24,406 nt of DNA from a virus. Location of the stretch: IMG/VR virus record IMGVR_UViG_3300010883_005856, positions 1 through 24,406 of that record; one strand, written 5' to 3'. The position numbers were made by a program, and so were the translations under genes. Positions 2,463 to 22,956 of this stretch are shown here, in pieces (within the stretch, counting starts at the first letter, position 1; every line of letters begins with the position of its first letter). The notes beneath the pieces are model-generated. The model searched no databases, was not told where the DNA came from, and saw only the letters and a list, made by a program, of their open reading frames with translations.

Positions 2463-3465
2463 TCACTTTGCTCGATTAAATGAAGATAGTACAGTCAGTC
2501 GTTGCGGGCATATGGTAAATGCCCCTCGTTTTACTTCGTATAAAGAAATGGAAGACAGTGACTGGGCAAAACAGATAAAAGACACTGAAGAATGGCCTGC
2601 TGAATGCCAACGATGTCAGACAACTGAATTAGCGTCAGGAACCAGTATTCGAATTGATAGTATACGCAGAGACAAGCTGTTAAAGACATTCAAAGATGAC
2701 TATCTCATTATAGGTGGTGTCTTAGACAACGTATGCAACTCAGCATGCCAGTTTTGCTACTCTGGGCTGTCAACGACTATCGGAAAATTAGAAAAGAAGG
2801 TGATTAAATTAGAAAACGTAACAGCATTTGATAGTCTGCCAAAGGATCGCATTGTTGAATTAGATATTAACGGTGGAGAACCTAGCTATAGTAAGAACTA
2901 TGCTCGACTGTTAGACAACTTACCACCAAATGTTAAGGTAGTTAGAATAAACACCAACGGAACAACAGTAATTAAACAGATAGAAAAACTACTAGAACGT
3001 AAGATAAAAGTCATAGTAACATTAAGTTTTGACGGTACTACACAAGTACATGAGTATGCTCGCTTTCCAATTAAGTGGACAAAATGGGATCAGGTTGTTA
3101 GAAAGTATAAACACTTGGCAGACAACCATAAAAATTTAGAACTTGGCTTTTGGAGTACGCTAAACGTTTATACTATTAACGACTTAGAAAATATGTTAAG
3201 GTACGCAGATCAAGTAGGAATTCCTTTTAGTTACGGAGTACTTGAATACCCCGAACAAATGAATATAAAGTACGAAAATGAGTTTACCAAACAGGCACGC
3301 AAAAAATTTGAGAAATCGGACATATTGTTACTCAAACAACTTGCACCTTTGGTTGCATCAAGTTATAATAATACAAACGAACTAGTAGAGTTTATAACTA
3401 AGCAAGATCAAGTACGAAAAATTAGTTATAAAGACTACTACACAGATATAAATTTAGGAGAATAG
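2443..3465 (+). CDS. Radical SAM protein with N-terminal twitch-like domain (copy 2)
   Basis: The 340-aa enzyme has CNSACQFC (CX3CX2C) at residues 98-105 and GGEP further on. The first 60 residues hold Cys3, Cys21, Cys55 and Cys58, the same C...C...CxxC arrangement as in copies 1 and 3, so an auxiliary Fe-S cluster is likely. Cys3 is almost at the N-terminus, so the start at ATG 2443 leaves little room for a later start. It overlaps the sulfotransferase-like gene by 20 nt and ends 1 nt before uvsX; the uvsX Shine-Dalgarno AGGAG (3456-3460) lies inside its last codons. The substrate is unknown. Sequence divergence from the other two copies suggests separate substrates and not redundancy. Confidence 0.9.
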   Translation: MFCPRLDHFARLNEDSTVSRCGHMVNAPRFTSYKEMEDSDWAKQIKDTEEWPAECQRCQTTELASGTSIRIDSIRRDKLLKTFKDDYLIIGGVLDNVCNSACQFCYSGLSTTIGKLEKKVIKLENVTAFDSLPKDRIVELDINGGEPSYSKNYARLLDNLPPNVKVVRINTNGTTVIKQIEKLLERKIKVIVTLSFDGTTQVHEYARFPIKWTKWDQVVRKYKHLADNHKNLELGFWSTLNVYTINDLENMLRYADQVGIPFSYGVLEYPEQMNIKYENEFTKQARKKFEKSDILLLKQLAPLVASSYNNTNELVEFITKQDQVRKISYKDYYTDINLGE

Positions 3466-4865: not shown

Positions 4866-6140
4866 ATGGAAAAAAAGTATTTTCCAATTAAAACAGCCAC
4901 TGCGTGTCTAGCAAAATGGTCATTTAGTAAAATAGCACTACATTTGGGGGTAACTTCTAGCTGTCATAGAGTAATTAATCATAAATTTGACCTAGAAACT
5001 TTTAACTTTCATAATACTCCGGAAAAAATAGAACAAAGAGAAACAATGTTACAAGGCGAGTGGCCTGATGGCAAACCTAACCCTGCAATTGAAACTACAT
5101 GTAAGCAGTATTGTGGAAAATTTGAAAAGAATAGCGGTGCGAGTGACAGACAGTTCTTTAACAGCCTACCTAATTTGTATCCCGATGAGCTCGACGATGA
5201 CCCAACACTAACTCAAGTAGATCCAACAATATTAGAAGTTTATATAGATAATACTTGTAATTTAAAATGTGTTTACTGTGTCCCTGAATTAAGTTCTGGA
5301 ATAGATACAGAAATGAAAAAGTTTGGACGCTTTGAAAAACATAATTTAGTATTAGAAAGTAAATTTAAACATCCAGATAATTTTAGTCATATTCAAGAAA
5401 AGTTTTGGGAATGGATGCACCTTAATGTACATAAATTGAAAAGACTACAACTGTTAGGAGGCGAGCCATTCTATCAAAAACAGTTTGATCAATATTTAGA
5501 GCTGTTTGAAACTATTCCTTGTCCTAATCTAGAACTTGAAATAGTTAGTAATCTAATGATAAAACCAGCTAAGTTAAAAGGCTATATGGAACGTGTAAAG
5601 AAACTAATAGCTGAGAAGAAGCTGGGTAGATTAGACATGCACTGTTCGATTGATTGTTGGGGACCACAACAAGAGTTTACCAGATATGGAATAGAGTTGG
5701 TACAATGGGAAGAAAACTTTAAATATCTAATCAGTGAACGATGGATTAAATTAAATATCAATGGAACTATCTCGGTATTAACAATTAAAACAATACCGGG
5801 GTTACTCAAAAAATTAAAAGAGTGGTCTAAGGATAGAAAAATAGAACACTATTTTACACAAGTTTTTTTTCCAGACTACATGGCTCCTGACATATTAGGC
5901 GCAGATGAATTTAGCAACGATTTTAAAACTATTTTAAATCTTATGGAAACAGACAGTTATCATGGTCCTAGTGCAAAAGAGCATTTTACTGCTATAACAA
6001 ATAATGTCAAAAACAGTAGACTTGATAAACAAAAGGTGTTACAATTATTAACATACCTTGATGAATTAGATAGACGCAGGGGCACAGATTGGAAACTGTT
6101 ATTTCCATGGTTAGAGGAGTATAGAAATGTGGTACAATAA
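4866..6140 (+). CDS. Radical SAM protein with N-terminal twitch-like domain (copy 3)
   Basis: At 424 aa this is the longest of the three radical SAM enzymes. CNLKCVYC (CX3CX2C) is at residues 131-138, GGEP follows, and HCSIDCWG resembles the later core strand of this family. The N-terminal domain holds Cys14, Cys33, Cys79 and Cys83; the last pair is spaced Cx3C instead of CxxC as in the other copies. The end resembles copy 1 strongly (DxRRGxDWxLLFPE-like closing segment), which indicates common descent. It is inserted between the small acidic gene (0-nt gap) and the UvsY-like gene (14-nt overlap), so it is translated as part of the recombination operon. The substrate is unknown. Confidence 0.9.
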   Translation: MEKKYFPIKTATACLAKWSFSKIALHLGVTSSCHRVINHKFDLETFNFHNTPEKIEQRETMLQGEWPDGKPNPAIETTCKQYCGKFEKNSGASDRQFFNSLPNLYPDELDDDPTLTQVDPTILEVYIDNTCNLKCVYCVPELSSGIDTEMKKFGRFEKHNLVLESKFKHPDNFSHIQEKFWEWMHLNVHKLKRLQLLGGEPFYQKQFDQYLELFETIPCPNLELEIVSNLMIKPAKLKGYMERVKKLIAEKKLGRLDMHCSIDCWGPQQEFTRYGIELVQWEENFKYLISERWIKLNINGTISVLTIKTIPGLLKKLKEWSKDRKIEHYFTQVFFPDYMAPDILGADEFSNDFKTILNLMETDSYHGPSAKEHFTAITNNVKNSRLDKQKVLQLLTYLDELDRRRGTDWKLLFPWLEEYRNVVQ

Positions 6141-7349: not shown

Positions 7350-7357
7350 GATAAATA
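7350..7357 (+). promoter_or_regulatory. T4-type late promoter candidate for the glycan block
   Basis: GATAAATA sits in the 47-nt gap between the methyltransferase stop (7337) and the GT8-like start (7385). It matches the T4-like late promoter core (TATAAATA) at seven of eight bases. The 27-nt space to ATG leaves room for a short leader with AAGG at 7374-7377. The same core with the same preceding G occurs at 14287 and 22949 ahead of virion-like genes. Confidence 0.7.
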
Positions 7358-7384
7358 CCTATATTAAAAATATAAGGTACTACA

Positions 7385-8080
7385 ATGAATTCAACACCAA
7401 TTTTTATAGGGTATGATCCAAGAGAAGCAATAGCATACCATGTATGCTCAAACAGTATAATTAGACACGCAACTAGCCCTGTATCCTTAAATCCTCTGGC
7501 AATCAATTTGCTTAAAGGATACAAAGAAGAACACACAGACGGTTCTAATCATTTTATCTATTCAAGGTTCCTAGTTCCTCATGTTATGAATTATCAAGGT
7601 TGGGCAATTTATATTGACGGCGATATGATTGTTAAAGATGACATAGAAGAACTATGGAACATGCGTGATGAATCTAAAGCAGTAATGGTAGTCAAACATA
7701 ATTATAAAACTAGAATGAAGTACAAGTATCTAGGATCAAAGAATGAAGATTACCCTCGTAAAAATTGGAGTTCTGTAATACTATGGAATTGCAGTCATCC
7801 TGACAATCAACAGATTACCCCAGACTTTATTAAAAATCATAAAGGCAGTTACTTACATAGATTTAATTGGTTACAAGATGATCAAGTAGGGGAACTTCCT
7901 AAAATTTGGAACTGGTTACCTGATGAATACGATCCTAATCCAGATGCTAAATTGTTACACTATACGTTAGGTACTCCTTGCTTTCACGAGTTTGCAGATA
8001 CTCACCAGGCCAATGATTGGCATCAAGAAAGATTGTTTACAGAATATTGTCAACAACGAGTAGACCTATTAGGTGATTAA
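7385..8080 (+). CDS. GT8-like glycosyltransferase (GT-A fold)
   Basis: The 231-aa protein resembles family 8 glycosyltransferases. It has an opening strand PIFIGYDPREAIAYHV, a conserved YSRFLVP segment, the metal-binding DxD motif as DGD at residues 78-80 (IYIDGDMIV), and a C-terminal HYTLGTPC segment equivalent to the HxxGxxKPW-type metal/nucleotide motif. It should transfer a sugar from a nucleotide sugar using Mn2+ in the cytoplasm. It is the first gene behind the late promoter at 7351-7357 and overlaps the next gene by 8 nt. Donor and acceptor are not predictable. The late promoter argues for a role near assembly, for example decorating a virion protein. Confidence 0.85.
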   Translation: MNSTPIFIGYDPREAIAYHVCSNSIIRHATSPVSLNPLAINLLKGYKEEHTDGSNHFIYSRFLVPHVMNYQGWAIYIDGDMIVKDDIEELWNMRDESKAVMVVKHNYKTRMKYKYLGSKNEDYPRKNWSSVILWNCSHPDNQQITPDFIKNHKGSYLHRFNWLQDDQVGELPKIWNWLPDEYDPNPDAKLLHYTLGTPCFHEFADTHQANDWHQERLFTEYCQQRVDLLGD

Positions 8081-8948
8081 TCCCAACGACATACTCTGTG
8101 TTAATAGAAAGAAGAATGATCAACCACCTAGAAATCATCACAAACTAGAAACAACAGCCATGTATAACTTTGCTCTAGGCTGTGACGGAACACCGATTAG
8201 TTGGGAAGAAGCACGTGACTATCATGACAATACAATAATATTGTATGGCGCACAAATGATTAAAGCAGTTAAGCACTGCTGGGCAAACAATATTAACTTC
8301 TTCTATATTGACAACTGTTATATAGGCAATGTACAAAATAAAAAACAATATCATCGTGTAATACAAAATCATGTACATGACCTCCGTCCGATTATTGAAA
8401 GACCAAGAGATCGACTGCAATCAGTTATATGGTTTATAGAATGGATACGAAGTAAAAGTGATCGTAAAGCTAACATGGTTAAACCATCTCTATTACAACC
8501 TAAGCCATTTGCTCCGGGACGTAGTATACTAGTTGCACCACCTAGCCCAAAAAGTTTTACATTGTGGGACATTGATCAAGAACAGTGGATTGAAGAAACT
8601 GTAAATGAAATAAAAAAACATACCGATCGACCTATTAGGATTAGATTAAAGCGGGCTAGAGATGAAAGATTTGCTGAGAACACAATGGAAGAAGATCTTA
8701 AAGAATGTCATTGTTTAGTTACATATAATTCAGTGTCTGCATTAGAGGCATTAATAAACGGCAAGCCAGCATTTACATTAGGACCTAATGCCGCACATCA
8801 TCTTTGTTATGATGACCTAGCTAAAATAGAAAATCCATACATACCACACAGTGACGAAGTTGATGCACTTCTTAGGCATTTAAGTTACAGTCAGTTTACA
8901 AGAAAAGAAATGGCAAGTGGAGCCGCTTGGGACATATTAAATGGCTAA
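8073..8948 (+). CDS. GT-B-like polysaccharide biosynthesis family protein (paralog 1)
   Basis: The 291-aa protein belongs to a family repeated four times in this block. The shared C-terminal half reads: strand RSILVAPPSP, a W-x8-I-x2-HTDRPIRIR segment, a DL-x2-CHCLVTYNSVSALEALINGKPAF segment, then HLSYSQFT-x2-E-x2-SG. The NSVSALEAL and HP/R-type motifs resemble the nucleotide-binding half of GT-B enzymes such as capsule (KpsC/KpsS-type) transferases. In this copy the expected RxHP is RLKR, so catalysis may be altered. I chose the GTG start at 8073, which overlaps the GT8-like gene by 8 nt; a later ATG (8160) is possible but would remove conserved-looking residues. Confidence 0.8.
   Translation: MINPNDILCVNRKKNDQPPRNHHKLETTAMYNFALGCDGTPISWEEARDYHDNTIILYGAQMIKAVKHCWANNINFFYIDNCYIGNVQNKKQYHRVIQNHVHDLRPIIERPRDRLQSVIWFIEWIRSKSDRKANMVKPSLLQPKPFAPGRSILVAPPSPKSFTLWDIDQEQWIEETVNEIKKHTDRPIRIRLKRARDERFAENTMEEDLKECHCLVTYNSVSALEALINGKPAFTLGPNAAHHLCYDDLAKIENPYIPHSDEVDALLRHLSYSQFTRKEMASGAAWDILNG
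8878..8899 (+). repeat. 22-nt imperfect repeat marking tandem gene duplication (copy 1)
   Basis: This stretch encodes LSYSQFT in paralog 1 and matches positions 10001-10022 in paralog 2 at 20 of 22 bases, including synonymous positions. Similarity at silent sites suggests a fairly recent duplication or gene conversion between the two neighbours. Confidence 0.6.
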
Positions 8949-10080
8949 CTATACTATTATTAATGATGATGAATTAGCTGATTTTGTTGCAGGGGAATTA
9001 ATAGCTAAGAGGTTCAGTCAAGGTCCACACTGGCATTTCTGTCAGAAAGTATATACCCAACACTTTAATGGAACTAAATTAGCAACCGAAAAAAGGATTA
9101 ACAAAGCTGTCATAGCAGATATAACTAAATGGCGCAAGCTAATAAAATTAGAAGTACGATCAATATGGAAATTTAAAAAACGAAAGTTAGTTGGATTTGT
9201 TTTAGATAATTTAGATAAAATATGTAGTGCGTACGGTAATGGCAATGTGCAGAAAGGTAGGAGACTATTATTAAACCAATATCTAAAATCTACAACCAAC
9301 ACCCACATGAAGAAATTGTCAGCTGGTATATTTGAAAACAGTAAATTTCGTAATCCTGATACGTATAGTCACCCAGAACAAGACTGTTTAATTAGGAATA
9401 TTTTAAACAATGAAGAGCTGTTACACAATAAAATAACAAACAATTTTCCACTGTGGTTTATAGACTCAGGATATACCAACTTTGTCAGAGACAGTGAAAG
9501 TAAAGAATGGCATAGGTTATGTCGTAACGATATTCATACAGACTTACCTAAACGTACATTTCCAATGGACCGACTGTTAAAAATGATTTTGGATAATCGA
9601 AACAGGCTCGACGGATTTCAATTCCCACGGTACTGGAGAGATGGTGGCGACACAATATTAATAATACCTCCTAGTCAACATATTTGTGCTGTGTACGGAT
9701 TACATCAGACAAAATGGATAGCTGAACAACAGAAAAAATTAAAAACACTTACTAATAAAAATATTGTTGTAAGAGAAAAGACTGGTAGTAGATCAAATCG
9801 AACTAGTTTGTATAGAGACTTACTTGCTGACCAATCAATTTATTGTGTAGTTGGGCACAGTTCAAATGCGTTAACTGAATCAGTGTGGGCAGGTGTACCT
9901 ATAATTACATTAGGCAAGCATGTAACAAATCCTGTCAGTAGAAGCAGTTTAGATAAGATCAATAACCTGTATAGAGATGATATAAGTCAATGGCTATGCT
10001 ATTTAAGTTATAGTCAATTTACGTCCGACGAGTTATTAAACGGAACTGCTAAAAAAATATTGGAGATATGGCATGTATGA
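8941..10080 (+). CDS. GT-B-like polysaccharide biosynthesis family protein (paralog 2)
   Basis: At 379 aa this is the largest of the four paralogs. Its C-terminal half keeps the family order: strand DTILIIPPSQ, a W-x-A segment, NIVVREKTGSRSN in place of the RxHP motif, CVVGHSSNALTESVWAGVPIIT, then YLSYSQFTSDELLNG. The N-terminal ~200 residues are unlike the other copies, basic and rich in Lys/Arg, perhaps an added acceptor-binding domain. The start overlaps the previous gene by 8 nt and the end overlaps the next gene by 8 nt. The family is inferred to be GT-B-like, but no single residue proves the reaction, and loss of RxHP in this copy may mean a non-catalytic role. Confidence 0.82.
   Translation: MANYTIINDDELADFVAGELIAKRFSQGPHWHFCQKVYTQHFNGTKLATEKRINKAVIADITKWRKLIKLEVRSIWKFKKRKLVGFVLDNLDKICSAYGNGNVQKGRRLLLNQYLKSTTNTHMKKLSAGIFENSKFRNPDTYSHPEQDCLIRNILNNEELLHNKITNNFPLWFIDSGYTNFVRDSESKEWHRLCRNDIHTDLPKRTFPMDRLLKMILDNRNRLDGFQFPRYWRDGGDTILIIPPSQHICAVYGLHQTKWIAEQQKKLKTLTNKNIVVREKTGSRSNRTSLYRDLLADQSIYCVVGHSSNALTESVWAGVPIITLGKHVTNPVSRSSLDKINNLYRDDISQWLCYLSYSQFTSDELLNGTAKKILEIWHV
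10001..10022 (+). repeat. 22-nt imperfect repeat marking tandem gene duplication (copy 2)
   Basis: This is the partner of 8878-8899, in the matching codons of paralog 2, with two mismatches (C/T and G/A transitions). Confidence 0.6.
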
Positions 10081-10987
10081 TGTAGTTGTATATCTCTCAA
10101 GTTTGCCTAGAATAGCGGACCACGATCGCAAAGCACAAATACTAAAAGCATTTGCTGAAGGGTGTCAGCGAGCAGGTGCTAGTACATTTATCCAGACGGA
10201 ACGTGAAGTTATTCCAGGCCGCCTTGGTGTGTTTATCGGGTGGTATGGACAAACATTTTCTGGACCGCATATACATTTGCGTAAAGCAGTAATAGATTGG
10301 GCAAAAAATAATAGACAGCATTGCATGCCTATAGACGGGTCGTGTTTTAAGTTTGTTGACCCTAATAGTCAATATGTTCGTTATAGTCTTGATGGTGTCT
10401 ATTACAATGAAAATGAATATGCCAATAAAGGCAGTATCAATCAAAAGTGGAATCAAATCAGACATGATCTACGCATGCCTGGAATGAAACCGTGGAGGGA
10501 AAACGGTACTGGCAGTCATATTTTAATTTGTTTACAGCGTGACGGTGGTTGGAATATGAAGGGTGCTGATTTAGATCAATGGTTAGCAAATTCAATTGCT
10601 TCGATTAGAAAACACACAGAACTGCCTATTTTAATTAGACCTCACCCTAAACGCAAGTGTGATATTACACAGTACTTACAACAAGTAAACGTGTATGAAA
10701 GTATAAAAGGTGGATCACTACAGCAGGATCTTGAAGGAGCTCATGCTAGCGTGTTTTATAATTCATCAAGCTCTGTTGCTAGTATTTTAGCTGGCGTCCC
10801 TGTATTTGTGGCCGATGAAGATGCTGTAACTTGGGCAGTAGCAAATCATAACATTGACAATATAATGTCTCCAGAGTATCCAGAACGTAGCCAATGGTTA
10901 TATGATTTAGCCGCGTGCCATTGGAGTGATAGTGAACTTCTTAATGGAAGTGTTTGGAAACACTTTAAACCTTACTTGGCAGACTGA
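10073..10987 (+). CDS. GT-B-like polysaccharide biosynthesis family protein (paralog 3)
   Basis: The 304-aa protein is the most complete-looking member of the family. The N-terminal half has GVFIGWYGQ, a PIDGSCFKF segment and YVRYSLDGV. The C-terminal half has HILICLQRDGGWNM, a WL-x5-I-x2-HTELPILIRPHPKRK segment with an intact RPHP motif, a DLEGAHASVFYNSSSSVASILAGVPVFV segment and a closing SQWLYDL...SELLNG. RPHP and YNSS with a small-residue loop fit nucleotide-sugar binding in GT-B capsule-type transferases. It overlaps the previous gene by 8 nt and its last 16 nt overlap, tail to tail, the end of the leftward gene at 10972-11217. It is cytoplasmic with no membrane segment; the donor sugar is unknown. 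Confidence 0.82.
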   Translation: MYDVVVYLSSLPRIADHDRKAQILKAFAEGCQRAGASTFIQTEREVIPGRLGVFIGWYGQTFSGPHIHLRKAVIDWAKNNRQHCMPIDGSCFKFVDPNSQYVRYSLDGVYYNENEYANKGSINQKWNQIRHDLRMPGMKPWRENGTGSHILICLQRDGGWNMKGADLDQWLANSIASIRKHTELPILIRPHPKRKCDITQYLQQVNVYESIKGGSLQQDLEGAHASVFYNSSSSVASILAGVPVFVADEDAVTWAVANHNIDNIMSPEYPERSQWLYDLAACHWSDSELLNGSVWKHFKPYLAD

Positions 10988-11217
10988 ACCATTTCTAATA
11001 GTTTTTCGTGTGTGTAACAACCAGAATAACTAGAGTACACCTGTCCAGAACTTTGAGTTATTTCGTCTATATTCCATTGATGAAATTGTGTAGTTAACAA
11101 GGCATATATGTTGCAGGTGTATTCAGTTTTAAACTCCATGATATAAAGTTCAGGTACGCATACACTAGTCAGACTAATGCAGGTACCTAACGCATAACCC
11201 CAGAGACCTAAACCCAA
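10972..11217 (-). CDS. Small protein of unknown function
   Basis: The frame runs leftward from TTG 11217, overlapping the FkbM gene end by 10 nt, to TAA at 10974-10972. Codon choice in the C-terminal ~55 codons resembles neighbouring phage genes, and the sequence (EFKTEYTCNIYALLTTQF, then QWNIDEITQ, then THEKLLEMVQ) looks like a real small folded protein. The first ~27 residues are hydrophobic and Cys-containing and could be a membrane or signal-like segment, or could be non-coding if translation starts at the internal ATG at residue 27. I do not recognise the family. Coupling with the FkbM gene and a tail-to-tail overlap of 16 nt with paralog 3 are the main context. Confidence 0.5.
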   Translation of the reverse strand: MGLGLWGYALGTCISLTSVCVPELYIMEFKTEYTCNIYALLTTQFHQWNIDEITQSSGQVYSSYSGCYTHEKLLEMVQSAK

Positions 11218-11855
11218 CCTAGTACAATGTCGTTACGAACACGACACAGTTCTCGAGCACCCCATCTGGTTAAATGACCTAATGCTTCGTATTTGGAATA
11301 AAATCCTACATCAGGATGGCCTTTTTGTTCAATGACCATTATGGGTTTATATTTTTTAAATGTTTCTTCACCGCCCAATAGGATATTTTCCTCATAGCCT
11401 TCGCAATCTACTTTGCAGTAGTCAAACTTGGGTAAGTCTAAATCGTCTATCTTAAACATATCTATAGTACCGTCACCCATTGTGGTAACATCTACGTGAC
11501 TATGACCTGTGTTCTCAGGTGTAATAACCATGTTAATTTTAGTAGTTTCGTTGCCTAACGCATGAGCACGCATATCAACTTTAGTCATGTCAACATTCTT
11601 TTCATAACACGCACGAAAGTCAGCAACGGGCTCAAACGCTATAACTTGTTCAAACTGTTCAGCCATGTCACGACTCCATAAGCCTACATTGGCACCTATA
11701 TCCAACGCTAGACCTTTGTGTTGCACAAACTCAAATGACTTAGTTCTAACGGGTTCTTGGTAAACAGGTAGCCCGCCTTTTCTGATATTTTTAGTTAACA
11801 TGCCAACAAAATGGGTGTCGTAATCCGGAAACCACCAACCGTGTTCTTGATACAT
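11208..11855 (-). CDS. FkbM-family methyltransferase
   Basis: The 215-aa SAM-dependent methyltransferase is of the FkbM type. Motif I is ALDIGANVGLWS (DIGANVG at residues 52-58), followed by VIAFEPVADF, where the Glu of the FEP motif contacts SAM. The family signature FDYCKVDCEGYEENIL lies at about 145-160, and MVIEQKGH follows. FkbM proteins usually O-methylate sugars or polyketide hydroxyls, and phage copies are commonly linked to glycosyltransferases, as here. It starts in a TAATG junction directly after the leftward glycosyltransferase, so the two are translationally coupled behind the late promoter at 12727-12733. Likely role: capping or modifying a sugar made by this block. Confidence 0.92.
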   Translation of the reverse strand: MYQEHGWWFPDYDTHFVGMLTKNIRKGGLPVYQEPVRTKSFEFVQHKGLALDIGANVGLWSRDMAEQFEQVIAFEPVADFRACYEKNVDMTKVDMRAHALGNETTKINMVITPENTGHSHVDVTTMGDGTIDMFKIDDLDLPKFDYCKVDCEGYEENILLGGEETFKKYKPIMVIEQKGHPDVGFYSKYEALGHLTRWGARELCRVRNDIVLGWV

Positions 11856-12709
11856 TATTCATTCTCCTTAATAGATGCCCAATACGGATGGTCAGTGTGT
11901 ACACCTTGATCTCTCTTGCGACTGTGTCCTTCTTTCTTACGTTTACCTTTAACATGATCTAGGTATTGTCCAAGAGCACTATTAACAAAGGTATGGCCAG
12001 CAAAGCCTTTACCATCTGGAGCAGGATTTAAATTATAAAATTCATTTTTAGGATTTTCTCTGTATCGTTTCCAGATAGTGCTCCATACATAACTGTCATG
12101 ATACTCTTTTAAGTCAAACAATAGGTCATCTGTATACTGCTGGACAAATTCATTTATAAACAGTCTAGTGTTAGGATGTCTTAAATTGTACCCTACCCAC
12201 CCACATTCTGGATGATATTTGTCACCTCTCCCTAGATATGTAATCATAGCGTTGAACGGCGATATTGATCCCATAAATTCTACAGGTACAGGAGTATGTG
12301 TAAGCGTGTCAGCGTCGCACCATACTAGCCAATCAGTGTCTACAATAGTTTTTACTGCTAGCTGTGTAGCAAATACTTTATAACAAAAACGAACAGCGTC
12401 CCATTTAAATTGTTTACGTGGATCCTGTGTTTCAACATCTTTACCGTGTGCTCGAAGATTATTTTTGTGTCGTTCAACGAAATCTCTACATTCTTTACTT
12501 GCGGCAAGTAGGTCAACTACACGAACGTTTTCTTTAGTAGTTGTTGGACTACAGTTTTCGGTGTACACAACAAGATCAATTTGCTCTGGCCAATACTTTT
12601 CAAAAGTATCAATCATCCTCTGTCCGTATTGTTGCATACCTTCTTTGTGGAATGTTGTTATTAGAGTATATTTCAAATTTTTCACCTTGTCCTTCAAAAC
12701 AGGATACAT
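11855..12709 (-). CDS. Glycosyltransferase-like protein (GT-A type)
   Basis: The 284-aa protein begins with a typical nucleotide-sugar-binding strand (YTLITTFHKEGM), contains the conserved basic helix around RKQFKWDAVRF and a metal-binding DxD motif, WLVWCDADT at about residues 128-136, then ECGWVGYNLRHPNTR and HDSYVW segments seen in GT-A enzymes. Its C-terminus is strongly basic (KGKRKKEGHSRKRDQ) before HTDHPYW. The product should bind a nucleotide sugar and Mn2+. It is the first leftward gene of an operon with FkbM and the small protein, driven by a late-type promoter 17 nt upstream of its start. Donor and acceptor are unknown; modification of a virion component is the favoured inference. 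Confidence 0.82.
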   Translation of the reverse strand: MYPVLKDKVKNLKYTLITTFHKEGMQQYGQRMIDTFEKYWPEQIDLVVYTENCSPTTTKENVRVVDLLAASKECRDFVERHKNNLRAHGKDVETQDPRKQFKWDAVRFCYKVFATQLAVKTIVDTDWLVWCDADTLTHTPVPVEFMGSISPFNAMITYLGRGDKYHPECGWVGYNLRHPNTRLFINEFVQQYTDDLLFDLKEYHDSYVWSTIWKRYRENPKNEFYNLNPAPDGKGFAGHTFVNSALGQYLDHVKGKRKKEGHSRKRDQGVHTDHPYWASIKENE

Positions 12710-12726
12710 AGTATTATATTAGCATA

Positions 12727-12733
12727 TATTTAT
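12727..12733 (-). promoter_or_regulatory. T4-type late promoter candidate for the leftward glycan operon
   Basis: On the minus strand the 27-nt gap between divergent genes reads AATAAATATATGC, with the core ATAAATA at 12733-12727. The leftward glycosyltransferase start is at 12709, giving about 17 nt between core and ATG. No equally good promoter was found for the rightward gene at 12737. Confidence 0.6.
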
Positions 12734-12736
12734 TCG

Positions 12737-13555
12737 ATGAAAACACTGACACATTTTTCTGCACACACTTCACTAAACTCAAAACCAGTCATGTCTGCGT
12801 TTTTGGCAAGTGCTAGCAAGCATTTTAAGGTTGTAGAAAATGATATGTCTGCTGACTGTGCTGTCATATGGTCATGTTTGTGGGCAGGACGTATGGCCCC
12901 TAACAAAGAAATATATAAACACTTTCGTAGTCAAGGTAAGCCTGTAATTATTATTGAAGTAGGTGCCCTTAAACGAAATATTACCTGGAAGATAAGTGTT
13001 AATAATATTACAACTCAAGGCTATTATGGACATCAGGAAAAGTTAGATTATAACAGGCCCAAACAATTAGGGTTAGTACTAAAAACACAGTTAAAAAATA
13101 ATGGAAAAATATTAATAGCGGCACAGCATCATAAAAGCCATCAACTGGCTAACCTAAACAGTCAAGAAGACTGGATTAATCAACAGATTAAAACGATACA
13201 AGATCAAACAGATAGAGATATAGTAGTGCGTAGTCATCCTAGATCACCGTTAACTATTCCTAGCCAACAACCTCGCAAGCTAGAAGGAACATATGATGAC
13301 TTTGATTTTGATACCGACTACTATTGTGTAGTTAATTACTCAAGTGGTCCTGGCATACAAGCCGCTATTAAAGGAACACCAATAATAACTAGTGAATATA
13401 GCCTAGCATATCCGATAAGTAACAACATTAACAAACTGCGCCGCCTAAAGAATAAAGCTACAGAACAATGGCTAACAGAAATAGCTCACACTGAGTATCT
13501 ACTAGAAGAAATAGAAGATGGTCGTTGGATATCAAGATTGGAATTAGCATTATGA
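12737..13555 (+). CDS. GT-B-like polysaccharide biosynthesis family protein (paralog 4)
   Basis: The 272-aa protein is the fourth member of the family at 8073-10987, separated from the others by the leftward operon. It shows the family order: strand GKILIAAQHH, a DWI-x6-I segment, QTDRDIVVRSHPRSP with an intact RSHP motif, YYCVVNYSSGPGIQAAIKGTPIIT, and a closing EQWLTEIAHTEYLLEEIEDG. NYSSGPGIQAA matches the GT-B Ser/Gly phosphate-binding loop. It probably transfers a sugar or sugar-phosphate in the cytoplasm. The stop overlaps the next start in an ATGA junction, so translation is coupled to the following GT8-like gene. I found no clear promoter for it in the 27-nt divergent gap. Confidence 0.82.
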   Translation: MKTLTHFSAHTSLNSKPVMSAFLASASKHFKVVENDMSADCAVIWSCLWAGRMAPNKEIYKHFRSQGKPVIIIEVGALKRNITWKISVNNITTQGYYGHQEKLDYNRPKQLGLVLKTQLKNNGKILIAAQHHKSHQLANLNSQEDWINQQIKTIQDQTDRDIVVRSHPRSPLTIPSQQPRKLEGTYDDFDFDTDYYCVVNYSSGPGIQAAIKGTPIITSEYSLAYPISNNINKLRRLKNKATEQWLTEIAHTEYLLEEIEDGRWISRLELAL

Positions 13556-14295
13556 AACAGGTAGATGACTATATGGAAAATGGTATAGACTGTGGTTGTG
13601 TATTACACGGTGCATACTATACCTTAGACTATGCTAAGAAATTAGAAGCTGGTCTACGTAGGAACTTTAGTTGTCCTATACGTTTTCACATATGGACTGA
13701 AAAAGCTAGAGAAGTACCTAAAGGGTGGCACAAACACGCTCTTAAAGACCTAGGGGTTACAGGACCTAAGAAATCCTGGTGGTACAAGACACAATTGTTT
13801 AGAAACAAAGATTTTCAGGGTAGACTGTTTTATTTTGATTTAGACATTGTGGTAGCAGGCAATCTAGACTGGATGCTGAGGTTAGGTAACGAGCAATTTT
13901 GGGCAGTTAGAGATTTTCGCTATCTTTGGAAAAAAAACAAATGGAGTATAAATAGTAGCGTAATGGTATTTAATACCAATGAATATTCTGATTTATGGAA
14001 AAAGTTCAAACGTAATCATCATGCAATTATGACACAGTATAACGGTGATCAAGACTTTGTAGATGCAGAAGTACCAGAAAGTAAAAAGCGTTGGTTAGAC
14101 CAAACCCAGGTAAAAAGTTATAGATGGGAAGTAATGGATGGGGGCATGGACTTTGTTTATCGCAACTATCCAAATAGAGGTAAAGACCGAAGCCACATTT
14201 TTAAAGATTTAAGTATAATTGTGTTTCATGGAGTACCAAATCCACATGAAATTGACGATAAAGAAGTCCTACCCCATTGGCAACTGGATAAATAA
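13552..14295 (+). CDS. GT8-like glycosyltransferase
   Basis: The 247-aa protein starts at ATG 13552 in an ATGA overlap with the previous stop; an upstream TTG at 13525 is less likely. It has the GT-A features: an early strand CGCVLHGAYYTLDYAKKL, WTEKAREVP, a KSWWYKTQLF segment, the metal-binding DLD at residues 96-98 (LFYFDLDIVV), SINSSVMVFN, DQDFV and a C-terminal FHGVPNPHE with the metal/phosphate-contacting His. This pattern is frequent in phage and marine glycosyltransferases related to family 8. The last bases of the gene contain the late promoter core ATAAATA (14288-14294) for the virion-like gene downstream, so this gene ends the second glycan transcription unit. Confidence 0.87.
   Translation: MKQVDDYMENGIDCGCVLHGAYYTLDYAKKLEAGLRRNFSCPIRFHIWTEKAREVPKGWHKHALKDLGVTGPKKSWWYKTQLFRNKDFQGRLFYFDLDIVVAGNLDWMLRLGNEQFWAVRDFRYLWKKNKWSINSSVMVFNTNEYSDLWKKFKRNHHAIMTQYNGDQDFVDAEVPESKKRWLDQTQVKSYRWEVMDGGMDFVYRNYPNRGKDRSHIFKDLSIIVFHGVPNPHEIDDKEVLPHWQLDK
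14288..14294 (+). promoter_or_regulatory. T4-type late promoter candidate, overlapping the upstream stop codon
   Basis: ATAAATA, preceded by G as at 7350 and 22949, spans the last codons and the first bases of the TAA stop (14293-14295) of the GT8-like gene. It lies 26 nt before ATG 14321, with a Shine-Dalgarno-like GGAG at 14307-14310. Confidence 0.7.
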
Positions 14296-14320
14296 CTGTA
14301 ACAATTGGAGAACATAGCAC

Positions 14321-14971
14321 ATGGCTAACAGAACATTTAAAGTATACGGACAAGCATACGCATCAGCAGGTGATGTAACCGCTGTGTTAACCGTAGGCGG
14401 AGTAGAAGTATTTAACAGTGCAGTCAATGACTCCACAACAGTTAGAGACGGACAACCAACAGCAACTAATCACTTGTTTTCATTCACATTAGATGAAGCA
14501 ACAACAGGTAACCTAGCATACTCACTTACTGCAACAGGTGGTGAACTTTGCCTAGGAAAAACAGAATATAACGGTGCTAAAATTGCTAAAATATCAGCTG
14601 ATTGGATTACATCAAATATACCAGACGAAACTAATGTATCAGCAGAGGCACAAACACACCTTGCAACAGAGTTAGGTGAAACTGCATTAGGCACAGATCT
14701 TTACAATGCCTTAGTAGCTGGATCAGTTACACACGCATCAGATGCACAAAGGGCAACAATAGTCGAAGCATTAATGCAACCTAGCTGGACTACGTATGTT
14801 GAATCAGATGACACACGTGTAACTGCACAGGTTGACGGTGTAGATATGGTTGACTGGGATGATGACACAGTTAACAAAGTAAATTGGCCAATTCTTGAAG
14901 ATGGACAAGTATTTACATGTACATGGAATCATACTCCTGATTCATACATAAACCCAAATATGTATTCATAA
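14321..14971 (+). CDS. Probable virion structural protein
   Basis: The 216-aa product is rich in Thr, Ala, Val and Asn with short alternating beta-type stretches (RTFKVYGQAYA, VTAVLTVGGVEVFN, HLFSFTLDEAT, LAYSLTATGG). It lacks catalytic motifs and is low in Lys, features common in phage fibre, decoration or adhesin proteins. It stands alone between a late promoter (14288-14294) and a strong terminator (14994-15020), so it is a one-gene late transcription unit, as expected for an abundant virion component. I do not recognise the exact family. The adjacent glycosyltransferases make it a candidate acceptor for the sugar made by this block, which is inference only. Confidence 0.72.
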   Translation: MANRTFKVYGQAYASAGDVTAVLTVGGVEVFNSAVNDSTTVRDGQPTATNHLFSFTLDEATTGNLAYSLTATGGELCLGKTEYNGAKIAKISADWITSNIPDETNVSAEAQTHLATELGETALGTDLYNALVAGSVTHASDAQRATIVEALMQPSWTTYVESDDTRVTAQVDGVDMVDWDDDTVNKVNWPILEDGQVFTCTWNHTPDSYINPNMYS

Positions 14972-14993
14972 TTAAGTAATCAGGTAATAATTC

Positions 14994-15020
14994 AAAAACC
15001 CCACACTACGTGGGGTTTTT
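14994..15020. terminator. Bidirectional intrinsic terminator between convergent genes
   Basis: AAAAACCCCAC (14994-15004) pairs perfectly over 11 bp with GTGGGGTTTTT (15010-15020) around a 5-nt ACTAC loop. The stem ends in A5 on one side and T5 on the other, so it can terminate both the rightward virion-like gene (ends 14971) and the leftward gene at 15006-15971. The leftward stop codon (15008-15006) lies in the loop, so the hairpin encodes the last residues of that protein. Confidence 0.92.
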
Positions 15021-15971
15021 GTTGACCAGTGTTTCTAGATAAAATTGTTTATTATAAAGGCTGATTGTGTGAGCTTGTTTGATCACAGCTTGGTATTCAT
15101 CACTAGTCAGTGATAGAATGTTATTGATAGTTTCTTGCATTGCTTTCCAACGTTGAGGCCCTGTATAGTGATCATATGTTTCATCCCAACACGAGCTCCA
15201 CGTTTTAAATCCTAGCTGTCTTAAGTTGTGCAGATAATCTTTTGGTCCATACACTATCATAGGTTTACGACCAAGCAACGGTCGAGTAGTTTTTTCTGTA
15301 GCAAAAAATGTAGTGCCCATCGTCCAGGTTTCAGCTACTATCTCAATGTCAAAGTTATTATAATAATTTAATAAACTAAATTGTGGGCCTAGATATTGGT
15401 CTTTCTTGTATTGATCTAACACTGTCCTAGAATCTAAACTAGGTATATTAAAAGAACTGGCCCAGTCGCTAAATTCTTCGGGATCATCAACCCAACTGTC
15501 AAACATAGTTTTGTCTAAAATATCATAATTATATTTTTCATCATTCATTGAACTTAACAAACAATCTTGTTTTTGTAGCCAATATAGTATACTAAGTCTG
15601 GGAATATTTTTCCTCCCAATGAAACATCCTAGTTTGTGATGACCGACGTTAATCGAATCAATTGATAGTGTTTTATATTTCTTAACTGATTCTTGCCACC
15701 AATGGTTAAGAGTTTTCCATTTATTAATATTAGTATACAAGTTAGTTTTTTCTTCAAGATTCATAGAATCCAATCTTATAGTATACGGATCACGTTTGTG
15801 TATTCTAACATGATTGTCAATCAATTTAATAACATTACTATGAAATAGACTAGGACCTTCGTTATCTGAAGATATTAGAACAGTCTGATCTAAGTTATTC
15901 TCTAAAAAAGTTGTTAGTTCATTAGAATTTAATAACTGATCATCATGGATTGATAATTTGAACATTTTCAT
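15006..15971 (-). CDS. Glycosyltransferase-like protein, GT10 (fucosyltransferase)-like C-terminus
   Basis: The 321-aa protein has a divergent, charged N-terminal half and a C-terminal motif block IVAETWTMGTTFFATEKTTRP, then LLGRKPMIVYGP, LHNLRQLGFKTWSS. The order (E-T-W..., TEK, G-x-P, then LGFKTW) resembles the nucleotide-sugar-binding core of family 10 fucosyltransferases and the paralog at 21572-22591. No membrane anchor is present. The gene ends inside the bidirectional terminator: its last codons (KNPT and stop) are the 3' arm and loop of the hairpin. A late-type promoter variant lies 5 nt before the start. It probably belongs to the late glycan set despite lying outside the main block. 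Confidence 0.72.
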   Translation of the reverse strand: MKMFKLSIHDDQLLNSNELTTFLENNLDQTVLISSDNEGPSLFHSNVIKLIDNHVRIHKRDPYTIRLDSMNLEEKTNLYTNINKWKTLNHWWQESVKKYKTLSIDSINVGHHKLGCFIGRKNIPRLSILYWLQKQDCLLSSMNDEKYNYDILDKTMFDSWVDDPEEFSDWASSFNIPSLDSRTVLDQYKKDQYLGPQFSLLNYYNNFDIEIVAETWTMGTTFFATEKTTRPLLGRKPMIVYGPKDYLHNLRQLGFKTWSSCWDETYDHYTGPQRWKAMQETINNILSLTSDEYQAVIKQAHTISLYNKQFYLETLVNKNPT

Positions 15972-15976
15972 ACGAG

Positions 15977-15983
15977 TATTTAC
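15977..15983 (-). promoter_or_regulatory. Late promoter variant directly at the start codon of the leftward gene
   Basis: The minus strand reads AGTAAATACTCGTATG, with GTAAATA (15983-15977) five nt before ATG 15971. It differs from the late core by one base, and the following ACTC matches the plus-strand late promoter at 22950 (ATAAATACTCTATATG). If used, the mRNA would start essentially at the ATG. Confidence 0.45.
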
Positions 15984-15996
15984 TACTATATTTTGG

Positions 15997-16025
15997 TTGA
16001 CTAATAATTTATAATTTGTTATAAT
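15997..16025 (+). promoter_or_regulatory. Sigma70-type early promoter (leaderless)
   Basis: TTGACT (15997-16002), a 17-bp spacer and a perfect TATAAT (16020-16025). The predicted start is seven bases after the -10 box, at 16032, exactly the A of the ATG of the small downstream gene. Confidence 0.85.
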
Positions 16026-16031
16026 GTTTAC

Positions 16032-16220
16032 ATGGCATATAATTATAACTTAGAAAAAGTCAATGCAGATTTATATGATGATATAGATCAGCTAGCCCTA
16101 GACGCATCAGGAATGTTTGAACAAAAGCTACAGGAGTTAGGTATTGCATTACCAGATGATGAACTTGAACAATTATACGATTCAATGAGAACGTTAGCAT
16201 TAAATTCGGTTGACCAATAA
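16032..16220 (+). CDS. Small acidic early protein of unknown function
   Basis: The 62-aa protein is acidic and helical (EQKLQELGIALPDDELEQLY). It has the shape of small early phage proteins that bind and redirect host machinery, but I recognise no family. A consensus-like sigma70 promoter ends 6 nt before its ATG, so its mRNA should be leaderless, and no Shine-Dalgarno is present. It precedes a second strong promoter that reads its last codons. Timing and promoter strength suggest expression immediately after infection. Coding status rests on the promoter, the intact frame and normal phage codon use. Confidence 0.75.
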   Translation: MAYNYNLEKVNADLYDDIDQLALDASGMFEQKLQELGIALPDDELEQLYDSMRTLALNSVDQ

Positions 16221-16238
16221 ATCCAAAACTGCTATAAT
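16210..16238 (+). promoter_or_regulatory. Sigma70-type early promoter for the AAA ATPase gene
   Basis: TTGACC (16210-16215), a 17-bp spacer and TATAAT (16233-16238). Transcription should start near 16245, giving a 32-38 nt leader with a G-rich ribosome-binding site (GGGGG, 16270-16274). The -35 overlaps the last codons of the small acidic gene. Confidence 0.88.
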
Positions 16239-16282
16239 AGTATTTGAAAGTTAGGAATTAATCATTTACGGGGGTAATGAAT

Positions 16283-17089
16283 ATGGTAGCTAAAACTATA
16301 AAATTCAAAAAAGAAACAGATGAGCAAATCATCGAGCGTATTGGCAAACGTTTTACTATATTAGATGACATGACTAAAGCCGCAATTTGTGGTGATATAA
16401 GAGCAATGATCGTTGTAGGCCCTCCAGGGGTTGGTAAGTCATATGGTGTTGAAAAACAATTAGAAAAAGCAAGTATGTTTACAGAAGTTGCATCAAGACC
16501 TAAACAATATGATGTTGTTAAGGGTGCAATGAGTGCCATTGGTTTATACTGTAAACTATTCAACTACAAAGAAAAAGACAACGTGCTAGTGTTTGATGAT
16601 TGTGACTCAATACTACAAGATGAGTTATCATTAAACATTCTTAAAGCGGCGTTGGATTCAAAGAAAACAAGAAAGATTTGTTGGAACACTGATTCATACA
16701 AGTTACGTAATGAAGGTGTACCTGATACGTTTAACTTTGAAGGGTCAGCTATTTTTATTACTAACTTAAAGTTTGAAAATGTTAAAAGTAAAAAACTACA
16801 AGATCATTTAGAAGCAATACAATCTAGATGCCATTACTTAGATCTTACACTTGACACTGAAAGAGATAAACTATTACGTATCAAACAGATTGCAGGTACT
16901 GGTGCTCTGTTTCAAGACTATGATTTTAATGGTCACGAGCAAGAAGAAATGTTAAACTTTTTACAAGACAATGCAACTATGGTAAATGAACTTAGTTTAC
17001 GTATGGCACTTAAGATTGCCGATCTTAGAAAAGTATCTAATACAAATTGGCAAGAACTAGCAAGAGCAACCTGCATGAAGCGAAGATAA
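16283..17089 (+). CDS. AAA-family ATPase
   Basis: Walker A GPPGVGKS is at about residues 46-53, Walker B VLVFDDCD at about 101-108, sensor 1 is in SAIFITNLKF, and a possible arginine finger lies in QSRCHYLDL. It is 268 aa from ATG 16283, which is 8 nt after GGGGG; ATG 16277 (two residues longer) is too close to that site. The protein is shorter than T4 gp44 and lacks its clamp-loader signatures, so I call it a general AAA+ ATPase of the kind carried by many marine T4-like phages, with unknown remodelling target. It has its own early promoter and is followed by a terminator, so it is a single-gene unit. Confidence 0.85.
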   Translation: MVAKTIKFKKETDEQIIERIGKRFTILDDMTKAAICGDIRAMIVVGPPGVGKSYGVEKQLEKASMFTEVASRPKQYDVVKGAMSAIGLYCKLFNYKEKDNVLVFDDCDSILQDELSLNILKAALDSKKTRKICWNTDSYKLRNEGVPDTFNFEGSAIFITNLKFENVKSKKLQDHLEAIQSRCHYLDLTLDTERDKLLRIKQIAGTGALFQDYDFNGHEQEEMLNFLQDNATMVNELSLRMALKIADLRKVSNTNWQELARATCMKRR

Positions 17090-17109
17090 TTTGTTCGTTT
17101 CGTGTTCAT

Positions 17110-17136
17110 AAAGGGTGTTGATGGTTGACACCCTTT
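17110..17136 (+). terminator. Terminator hairpin that contains the -35 box of the next promoter
   Basis: AAAGGGTGT (17110-17118) pairs perfectly with ACACCCTTT (17128-17136) over 9 bp with a 9-nt loop, followed by CCCCTTTT (17137-17144). It lies 21 nt after the AAA ATPase stop. The -35 hexamer TTGACA (17125-17130) of the uvsW promoter is partly in the loop and partly in the 3' arm. Confidence 0.75.
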
Positions 17137-17153
17137 CCCCTTTTATATATACT
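17125..17153 (+). promoter_or_regulatory. Sigma70-type early promoter of uvsW
   Basis: Perfect -35 TTGACA (17125-17130), 17-bp spacer, -10 TATACT (17148-17153). The expected start is about 17160, next to the uvsW ATG at 17161, so the mRNA is probably leaderless. A TATAAT at 17155-17160 exists but would need a 24-bp spacer. Confidence 0.8.
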
Positions 17154-19636: not shown

Positions 19637-20300
19637 ATGTAAGTATTGTGATCGTGAGTTTCGTAAAGAAACTACGCTAGCAGTGCATGTCTGCGAGCAA
19701 AGGAAACGCTTTCAGCATAAGAATGACCCAGCAAGTCGAACAGCATTTCAAAGTTACTTAAAGTTTTATGAAACTACTCAAGGATCAGCAAAGACAAAAA
19801 CGTTTGATGCCTTTGCAACATCAGCATACTATAAAGCATTTATTAAGTTTGCTAATTATTGTGTAAATTCTCGTGTTGTTAATTCAGTTAGATTTACTGA
19901 ATGGTTGCTGAAAAACAATAAACGTATAGACTATTGGGGCAGTGACAAGATGTATGACGAATTCTTAAAGGAATATATCTTTAGAGAAAATGCCACAGAC
20001 GCATTAACCAGAGCATTAGAAACATCAATGGATTGGGCAGAAGAAGTTAACTCACCAAGTGAAGACTTTTTAAGATATGGAAATACTAACAAACTTTGTC
20101 ATTATATAGTTACTGGCAGAGTAACAGGATGGATTATATTTAATTGCCCAACAGGACATGACCTATTAGAGAACCTAAATCAAGAACAGTTAGCTATTGT
20201 TTATGAATTTATTAATCCTGACCGTTGGTCAAAATTATTAAAAGATTATCCAGGTGATACTGAATATGTTAAGGAAATGTTAAAACAAGCAGGATGGTAA
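19608..20300 (+). CDS. Zinc-finger protein of unknown function
   Basis: The 230-aa protein has an N-terminal zinc-binding motif FKCKYCDREFRKETTLAVHVC: CxxC (about residues 11 and 14), then H-x-C after a 12-residue loop, a C2HC-type finger that likely binds DNA, RNA or protein. The rest is helical with conserved-looking aromatic clusters (WGSDKMYDEFLKEYIF, VTGWIIFNCPTGHDLL) and a final LKQAGW. It overlaps the gene before it by 29 nt. The stop TGG TAA lies in the sequence AGGATGGTAAAA, which recurs exactly at the end of the next gene, marking a probable cassette junction. Related finger proteins occur in marine T4-like phages without assigned function. Confidence 0.85.
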   Translation: MTSELKQTFKCKYCDREFRKETTLAVHVCEQRKRFQHKNDPASRTAFQSYLKFYETTQGSAKTKTFDAFATSAYYKAFIKFANYCVNSRVVNSVRFTEWLLKNNKRIDYWGSDKMYDEFLKEYIFRENATDALTRALETSMDWAEEVNSPSEDFLRYGNTNKLCHYIVTGRVTGWIIFNCPTGHDLLENLNQEQLAIVYEFINPDRWSKLLKDYPGDTEYVKEMLKQAGW

Positions 20301-20302
20301 AA
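20291..20302 (+). repeat. 12-bp direct repeat flanking the SGNH gene (left copy)
   Basis: AGGATGGTAAAA spans the stop of the zinc-finger gene and the start of the SGNH gene. An exact copy lies at 21010-21021, 719 bp away, at the SGNH stop and the next start. The SGNH gene is therefore exactly bounded by identical stop/start junctions. Confidence 0.8.
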
Positions 20303-21019
20303 AAAAAAATGAAATTAACAGTATTAGGTGACAGTTATGTTACTCCAGGAGTTTGTGTTGACCCTAAAGATAGTTTTTGGGGGTTGCTTGCTAAAGATCT
20401 AAGTATCGCAACAATAGATAATTATGCAACATCGGCATTTAGTTTAGATAGCATAATACATATCCTGTTAAACGAAGACATTGATTTTAGTCAAAGTTAT
20501 TTTATTATAGGGATTCCGCCTATTATGCGTGAAGCATATTATTCAGAGGAGATAGGACATACATTAACGCTGAAAACTTTTAATGATTTTGAGAAAAAAG
20601 CAACGCCAATTAGTTGCTTAGAAAATGTTGATAACATACAGTTTCATGATAGGTATGATAATGATTACACAAAAGTTAATGTTTTTAGCTCTGAATGGCG
20701 TGAGGTGCAAGTAATAGAAAAAATATATCTAATACATCAATTCTTATTGTCCAACCACGCTAAGTTTGTTATACTAAATTTAAGTGTTCCTTTTGTGTAT
20801 CAAGATATGTGGCCAGCGGGCAAAGAAATTATAAAGAAAGTTTACAACCTTAAAGAGTGTAATCTTTTTGAAGACACTTATCAAAGCGTTAATGAAAAAG
20901 ATGGAATTAAACCAGCTGACTTTGATGAATATAAATGGATGGGGCATCACGGACCTGAGGGCAATCTGAATTATTATAATAAAGTAGTAAAACCATTGGT
21001 AACTAATTTAGGATGGTAA
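20294..21019 (+). CDS. SGNH-hydrolase-like protein (inserted cassette candidate)
   Basis: The 241-aa protein shows block I TVLGDSYVTPG with GDSY at residues 12-15 (nucleophile Ser14), and a possible block V MGHHGPEGNLNYY with the catalytic His near residue 225. The remaining SGNH blocks (Gly, Asn) are not clear, so the fold is likely but activity is less certain. Family members act on acetyl or other ester groups of sugars. The start overlaps the previous stop by 7 nt (ATGGTAA), and an A11 run follows at 20299-20309; a second start at ATG 20309 would be beyond the run. It is flanked by 12-bp direct repeats, consistent with a moron insertion. Confidence 0.72.
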   Translation: MVKKKMKLTVLGDSYVTPGVCVDPKDSFWGLLAKDLSIATIDNYATSAFSLDSIIHILLNEDIDFSQSYFIIGIPPIMREAYYSEEIGHTLTLKTFNDFEKKATPISCLENVDNIQFHDRYDNDYTKVNVFSSEWREVQVIEKIYLIHQFLLSNHAKFVILNLSVPFVYQDMWPAGKEIIKKVYNLKECNLFEDTYQSVNEKDGIKPADFDEYKWMGHHGPEGNLNYYNKVVKPLVTNLGW

Positions 21020-22943: not shown

Positions 22944-22949
22944 TGACTG

Positions 22950-22956
22950 ATAAATA
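22950..22956 (+). promoter_or_regulatory. T4-type late promoter, leaderless
   Basis: ATAAATA preceded by G, with only CTCTAT (6 nt) before ATG 22963, so the predicted transcript starts at or next to the start codon. It faces the minus-strand late promoter at 22988-22981. Confidence 0.7.

Follow-up and report, generated by a model that had tools for sequence, protein, structure and literature searches.

The question raised by this locus is which molecule receives the sugars that it would make: the virus particle, the envelope of the host or the replicating DNA. The locus, here called the glycan island, lies in IMG/VR record IMGVR_UViG_3300010883_005856, a linear sequence of 24,406 bases which was analysed from 1 to 24,406 (the window) and which is a fragment of an uncultured jumbo phage, kin of Rak2, XaC1 and Phosso. 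It is composed of genes for glycosyltransferases (GTs) and an FkbM-family methyltransferase, together with a gene at 14321 of a different kind. The original prediction had placed this block under late promoters and had argued from the late timing for glycosylation of virion proteins. That interpretation, taken as a whole, is partly supported and glycosylation of virion proteins fits best: the island is on the same kind of promoter as the particle-building genes and its sugars are therefore most likely placed on new particles, a reading to which we give a probability of about one half.

Late-type cores were found at the heads of the island operons and at two genes further downstream. The sequence GATAAATA stands at 7350-7357 (+) ahead of the GT8 operon and again at 14287-14294 (+) ahead of 14321, where it overlaps the stop codon of the preceding gene, while the leftward GT/FkbM operon has AATAAATA at 12727-12734 (-) in a conserved ATAAATATATGCTAATATAA context. 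A further GATAAATA at 22949-22956 (+) precedes 22963-23718, whose counterpart in XaC1 and Phosso is annotated as a virion structural protein, and TATAAATA at 22981-22988 (-) is the core of the leftward gene 22566-22943. All of these are kept, despite changing spacers, in the four IMG/VR contigs G001, G003, G004 and G005, which carry the same block in the same gene order with protein identities of 55-93%; G003 is a 132-kb syntenic relative. A variant core, GTAAATA at 15976-15982 (-), lies 5 nucleotides (nt) before the ATG of the leftward gene 15006-15971 and is likewise kept in the four contigs; since in related loci the distance from GTAAATA to ATG is likewise exactly 5 nt in 13 of 24 cases, we regard the variant as real. 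The predicted sites ahead of GT8 (7351), the leftward operon (12733) and 14321, as well as the variant at 15971, are thereby confirmed, with a placement that is not random.

The window holds six copies of ATAAATA on both strands, five of which precede a start codon on their own strand by at most 40 nt, as compared with 8.5% for the other 20 A5T2 7-mers (p = 2.4e-5). For the full T4 octamer TATAAATA the window shows no enrichment (2 found, 4.3 expected) and the motif was for this reason taken as ATAAATA, with its placement as the signal. An occurrence of TATAAATA at 13947 (+) was rejected as a chance match, as it falls inside conserved GT coding sequence (WSINSS). In the genome of XaC1 37 of 51 ATAAATA copies in 349 kb are upstream of starts (p = 7e-22), and the motif occurs at -29 to -63 in 26 of the 61 genes listed as virion, tail, baseplate, head or adjacent structural; in G003 the figure is 27 of 35 (p = 5e-22), including the counterparts of portal, sheath, tube, neck and baseplate genes. 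The CBB genome paper describes ATAAATA ahead of structural genes, with late use predicted, and the same motif in CBB and GAP32 (PMC5259590). The placement statistics on virion genes and this published finding justify the label of late-type promoter core.

Across all gathered loci ATAAATA is present in the start region of 17 of 19 distinct 14321 homologues, of all 11 homologues of 22566, of 6 of 7 homologues of 22963, and of GT8 and 11855-family genes in 18 of 69 and 12 of 43 cases. For neighbouring genes the counts are 0/53 (UvsX), 1/64 (UvsY), 0/22 (UvsW), 0/21 (AAA) and 0/13 (polymerase). Since other genes often precede GT8 in its operon, cores were counted by operon head: 41 of 61 GT8-operon heads have ATAAATA, which is an undercount because the start of the longest open reading frame (ORF) may overrun the true start. 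Where the head is a cytidylyltransferase gene, a count corrected for this effect gave ATAAATA in 16 of 27 cases, and most of the others had GTAAATA at the same spacing. In contrast, conserved promoters of the sigma70 type stand ahead of h16032 (TTGACT-17-TATAAT at 15997-16025 (+), 6 nt before ATG) and of the AAA ATPase gene 16277-17089 (TTGACC-17-TATAAT at 16210-16238 (+)). No late core could be recognised ahead of the rightward pair 12737-14295 (ATAAATA at 1 of 29 and 0 of 28 homologues), and the claim that the block is under late promoters therefore holds, by sequence, for three of its four transcription units.

A gp55-like late sigma gene was found in seven of eight long relatives (132-344 kb; completeness of these contigs not established), the syntenic G003 included. 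The comparison of upstream sequences and this sigma gene give strong support to late control of the block, and the cores would presumably be used by gp55 late in infection. The core sequence is shared with T4 late transcription (gp55/gp33/gp45, with TATAAATA at -13 to -6); the island clade differs from T4 in that the first base of the octamer is free, the GTAAATA variant occurs and many start codons lie exactly 5 nt after the core. Relaxation of the first T of the octamer is likewise known from RB49, KVP40 and S-PM2 (PMC1524935).

This spacing has a consequence for the transcripts. The T4 octamer covers -13 to -6 (PMC1524935), so that a start codon which follows the core by 5 nt falls at +1. 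The distance from ATAAATA to ATG is exactly 5 nt in 52 of 128 cases in island-bearing loci, against about one case per position elsewhere, and the late mRNAs of the island clade, those of many GT8 operons included, thus appear to be leaderless. This is apparently a trait of the clade, as the late starts of XaC1 are at least 12 nt from the core and none is at 5 nt. Within the window leaderless spacing is seen at 15971 (N5) and 22963 (N6), with ordinary leaders for GT8 and 14321. A similar spacing is found for h16032 behind its sigma70 promoter (TATAAT-N6-ATG).

The island is widespread, being carried by a large clade of uncultured jumbo phages related to T4. A search with GT8 matched at least about 600 viral stretches, and in the contigs that were read the island occupies a fixed place between uvsY and uvsW. 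Its order is UvsX, UvsY, an optional methyltransferase, a late core, an optional nucleotidyltransferase/mannose-6-phosphate isomerase fusion, GT8 and the paralogous transferases, followed by the leftward operon, the homologues of 12737 and 13552, a late core, 14321, AAA and UvsW. In dozens of contigs the same operons are again headed by late cores, and the cargo varies to include GT25, GT2, UDP-N-acetylglucosamine (UDP-GlcNAc) 2-epimerase and a polysaccharide dehydratase. From these gene orders we take the island to be, probably, a sugar cassette that can be exchanged while its late output gene stays fixed. The fusion which heads the island operon in many relatives (e.g., L055:9237-9998) joins a cytidylyltransferase-like domain to the C-terminal domain of mannose-6-phosphate isomerase.

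The rightward operon opens with the GT8 glycosyltransferase (7385-8080 (+); PF01501, E = 3e-10, 40.5 bits against a cut-off of 24.3; DxD motif DGD at 78). It is followed by three overlapping paralogues of a glycosyltransferase-like protein at 8073-8948 (+), which has a GTG start and no KxHP motif, at 8941-10080 (+) and at 10073-10987 (+), with the fourth member of the group at 12737-13555 (+). These four products had no family match, nor did a PDB sequence search with the 8073 product return any; paralogy links 8073 to 8941, 10073 and 12737. The AlphaFold model of the 8941 product (mean pLDDT, the predicted local distance difference test, 77; weak before residue 90) was aligned by Foldseek to KrkA, KpsC and WbbB ahead of all else (probability 1.0). 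VIA-align gave Z scores of 9.0-9.8 for KpsC (9.8) and WbbB (9.1), indicating a modified GT-B fold nearest to that of the 3-deoxy-D-manno-oct-2-ulosonic acid (Kdo) transferases, with the N-terminal part of the model weak. The motif (K/R)xHP, a cytidine monophosphate (CMP)-binding motif common to sialyl- and Kdo transferases (PMC12887879), is represented by RPHP in the 10073 product and RSHP in the 12737 product and is kept in 59 of 63 and 29 of 29 of their homologues; the corresponding counts are 0 of 75 for 8941 and 0 of 9 for 8073. The QxxxD nucleophile motif 20-60 amino acids (aa) before the HP motif was found in 18 of 63 (10073) and 4 of 29 (12737) homologues and in no protein of the window. 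The paralogues are thus in part like the retaining Kdo transferases GT99 (WbbB), GT107 (KpsC) and GT140 (KrkA) in the predicted fold of 8941 and in the (K/R)xHP motif of the 10073 and 12737 families, but unlike them in having no QxxxD in place, no HP motif in the 8073 and 8941 families and no match at the sequence level. They probably work like GT-B sugar transferases of the Kdo-transferase superfamily, and they should not be filed as GT99, GT107 or GT140.

The leftward operon begins with a probable glycosyltransferase (11855-12709 (-)) which has a DxD motif (DAD132) and no family match and is conserved in the four syntenic contigs. The FkbM-family methyltransferase follows at 11208-11855 (-) (PF05050, E = 4e-14, 53.5 bits; TIGR01444, 79.9 bits, the only NCBIfam match among the block proteins), and the operon ends in a small ORF at 10972-11217 (-), a doubtful gene with a 55% identical counterpart in G003 and G004 only. 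Behind 12737 the rightward pair is completed by a glycosyltransferase with a DLD motif (13552-14295 (+); phrog_1962, a PHROG of glycosyltransferases, E = 5e-20); its product also has distant tblastn similarity to P1 PmgQ and P7 HdmD, which are labelled as putative morphogenetic functions. The product of 15006-15971 (-) had no match in Pfam, NCBIfam or PDB sequences; it is a putative glycosyltransferase by its paralogy with 21572-22591 (about 25% identity) and by a C-terminal motif which we take to be GT10-like. No hydrophobic segment in the block proteins reaches the length needed to cross a membrane, and all these proteins are, as judged from sequence, soluble.

The gene at 14321-14971 (+) is always inside the island; in about 20 of 29 cases a 13552 homologue is followed by a late core and then by a 14321-type gene. 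In another count 17 of 20 distinct homologues of 14321 had ATAAATA upstream. Its product is a late protein modelled as a beta-sandwich with a helical insertion at 93-151 (mean pLDDT 86). Against the PDB the best rows, and the only ones well above the rest, were CBM60 modules, calcium-dependent carbohydrate-binding modules of the same beta-sandwich type, with Z scores of 6.6 and 6.3; this is a weak match, as a Z below 8 (for vCBM60 6.6, with a root-mean-square deviation of 3.0 over 96 aligned residues) may reflect a common arrangement. There is no sequence match to CBM60, from which the helical insertion also sets the protein apart. Foldseek against viral models gave no row with E < 0.001, the best being an uncultured phage protein and an SGNH-domain protein. 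The original prediction had called 14321 virion-like with a late promoter of its own. The promoter stands; the late promoter, the conserved place and the predicted fold together make the protein a candidate virion component and a candidate carrier or binder of the glycan. The gene at 22963-23718 (+), position-equivalent in XaC1 and Phosso, encodes a virion structural protein (phrog_1084) with a weak LtfC-like beta-sandwich domain (PF23926, E = 5e-4, below the cut-off).

For glycosylation of virion proteins the following course can be proposed. The island operons would be switched on late by T4-type promoters with the core ATAAATA or its variant GTAAATA, read by host RNA polymerase with a phage gp55-like sigma such as is found in the relatives. 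Soluble cytoplasmic transferases (GT8, the paralogues of Kdo-transferase fold and further GT-A-like enzymes) would then build a short glycan on proteins of the nascent particles, and the FkbM O-methyltransferase would finish it to a short methylated glycan. The first candidate to carry or bind it would be the protein of 14321, whose gene comes immediately after a GT gene throughout the clade. The sugar products and the acceptor are predicted from the genes. A narrower form of this proposal, an LPS-like (lipopolysaccharide-like) O-methylated glycan on a dedicated late protein of the 14321 family, giving a phage-made, strain-variable sugar coat from leaderless late mRNAs, is rather unlikely to hold in all its parts.

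The strongest outside support for virion glycosylation comes from XacN1, a phage of the same wider clade. Its authors report in the main text that its virions contain at least two glycoproteins and that it encodes two GTs (PMC5852040). ATAAATA lies 21 nt upstream of ORF327 of this phage, which overlaps at its end with ORF328, a GT9 gene, and the core is rare in this genome, which has 49% GC. XacN1 is in this way a precedent with both virion glycoproteins and a GT operon behind a late promoter. In XacN1, as in mycobacteriophages (Freeman et al. 2023, as cited in PMC12619734), phage-coded GTs are thought to modify capsid or tail proteins. The island is unlike both systems in being multi-enzyme, with Kdo-transferase-like enzymes, a methyltransferase and T4-type late promoters, and in having a target that is only predicted.

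Several points weigh against placing the glycan on particles. A glycoprotein has so far been observed in no island-bearing phage, the island core has no orthologues among the XacN1 GTs, and the detection of glycoproteins in XacN1 is cited here from the main text of that paper (PMC5852040). The 14321 protein has no match among isolated phages, and therefore no proteome vouches for it as a virion protein. The operon 12737-14295, as said, is without a recognised late core. Moreover, the paralogous enzymes fold like enzymes of LPS and capsule synthesis, and the GT25, UDP-GlcNAc 2-epimerase and polysaccharide dehydratase genes in the islands of other contigs suit envelope sugars equally.

These last points lead to the alternative that survives best, late remodelling of the host envelope, which is possible but to our mind doubtful. 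The transferases would add Kdo-like, hexose or O-methyl groups to LPS or capsule precursors of the host, masking receptors, which would keep progeny from being caught by debris and would prevent superinfection. The fold nearest to KpsC, WbbB and KrkA, the (K/R)xHP motif in two of the four paralogues and the presence of GT8, GT25, FkbM and nucleotide-sugar genes such as are typical of LPS loci are consistent with it, and missing membrane segments do not count against it because such enzymes act as soluble peripheral proteins. The original argument that late timing points to the virion is only partly upheld, since timing alone cannot choose between particle and envelope, late modification of the latter being equally compatible with the promoters. 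On the other hand, late rather than early expression leaves little time for superinfection exclusion, and the coupling to the late, non-enzymatic 14321 would be unexplained unless 14321 binds that glycan. In the eight long relatives, which may be incomplete, no priming transferase or flippase family (PF02397, PF00953, PF01943) was found, and the CMP-Kdo and nonulosonate synthesis families PF02348 and PF03102 were not found either; as the contigs are not known to be complete, such absences are supportive only.

It is improbable, though suggested by the CBM60-like model of 14321 (Z 6.6 and 6.3; CBM60 binds xylan in a calcium-dependent manner) and by the strict linkage of this gene to the GT at 13552, that the island is an accessory cassette expressed late, with a glycan that is not on the particles at all, and that 14321 is a lectin-like receptor-binding virion protein, the enzymes making or modifying the sugar to which it binds. 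Sugar binding by 14321 is predicted from a model, and at a Z below 8 the resemblance may be that of a common arrangement. Phage GTs that glycosylate DNA exist, and the island sits among recombination genes. Hypermodification of replicating DNA, in which the transferases would glycosylate modified bases as in T4 and as reported for metagenomic phages, and for which a review statement in PMC12619734 reports phage GTs acting on DNA, is nonetheless very improbable: late promoters fit this target poorly, the folds are of LPS type, FkbM performs O-methylation, and the thymidylate-synthase/hydroxymethylase family PF00303 was not found in seven of the eight long relatives, although those contigs may be incomplete. 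That the promoter cores are chance matches in AT-rich DNA, as the lack of enrichment of the whole octamer in the window could suggest, is hardly credible, being contradicted by the placement statistics, the conservation and the exact 5-nt spacing in independent contigs.

Virion glycosylation by phages is rarely reported. Were it to occur here, a large and widespread clade of uncultured giant phages would have variable, self-encoded sugar coats, with a bearing on adsorption, environmental stability and recognition. In addition, comparing late promoters across relatives offers a simple way to part, in metagenomes, virion-directed sugar genes from early genes directed at host or DNA.

The backbone of the window consists of the end of a gp32-like gene, UvsX, UvsY, UvsW, a DnaE-like polymerase gene, a small leftward gene and the virion structural protein. 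This order matches that of two jumbo phages close to the Rak2 group, Xanthomonas phage XaC1 and Sinorhizobium phage Phosso. The Rak2-like jumbo phages and the sister XacN1/XaC1/Phosso lineages (CBB, GAP32, Atu_ph07) share with it the backbone ssb-uvsX-uvsW-polymerase III-like-virion protein-primase-DnaB; unlike the window, XaC1 and Phosso have a recA-to-helicase stretch without sugar genes or a glycan island. At the DNA level the only match among isolated phages was that of recA to XaC1. Membership of the moraphages (PMC12619734) in the same lineage was considered and dismissed, the main text of that paper being without UvsX and describing little shared machinery.

Other cargo was noted in and around this backbone. 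Three radical-SAM genes (one with a weak SPASM match), a short-chain dehydrogenase-like gene and 1839-2462 are interleaved with uvsX and uvsY (171-3465 and 4866-6140); none of these genes is at this place in G003 and G004, and they are therefore regarded as separate mobile cargo. Between the AAA (16277) and UvsW homologues of G005 there is a 678-aa molybdopterin oxidoreductase gene (PF00384, PF04879, PF01568), a very unusual cargo for a replication block. SGNH/GDSL-like N-termini were recognised by eye in 20294-21019, which has no Pfam match and is missing from the relatives, and in the ORF from 23728 to the end, which comes after the virion gene 22963. In G001 the UvsW gene is interrupted. 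The N-part of a Hint/intein, which ends in a stop, is followed by a separate endonuclease ORF of TnsA-like fold with NUMOD3 and then by the C-part of an intein, which is fused to the remainder of UvsW in a different frame; the arrangement resembles a split intein whose halves flank a homing endonuclease. Ahead of UvsW in the window, at 17105-17150, a GGGTGT...ACACCC hairpin is followed by T-rich sequence with TTGACA inside; these appear to be an overlapping terminator and promoter, and the arrangement is kept in G003 and G004.

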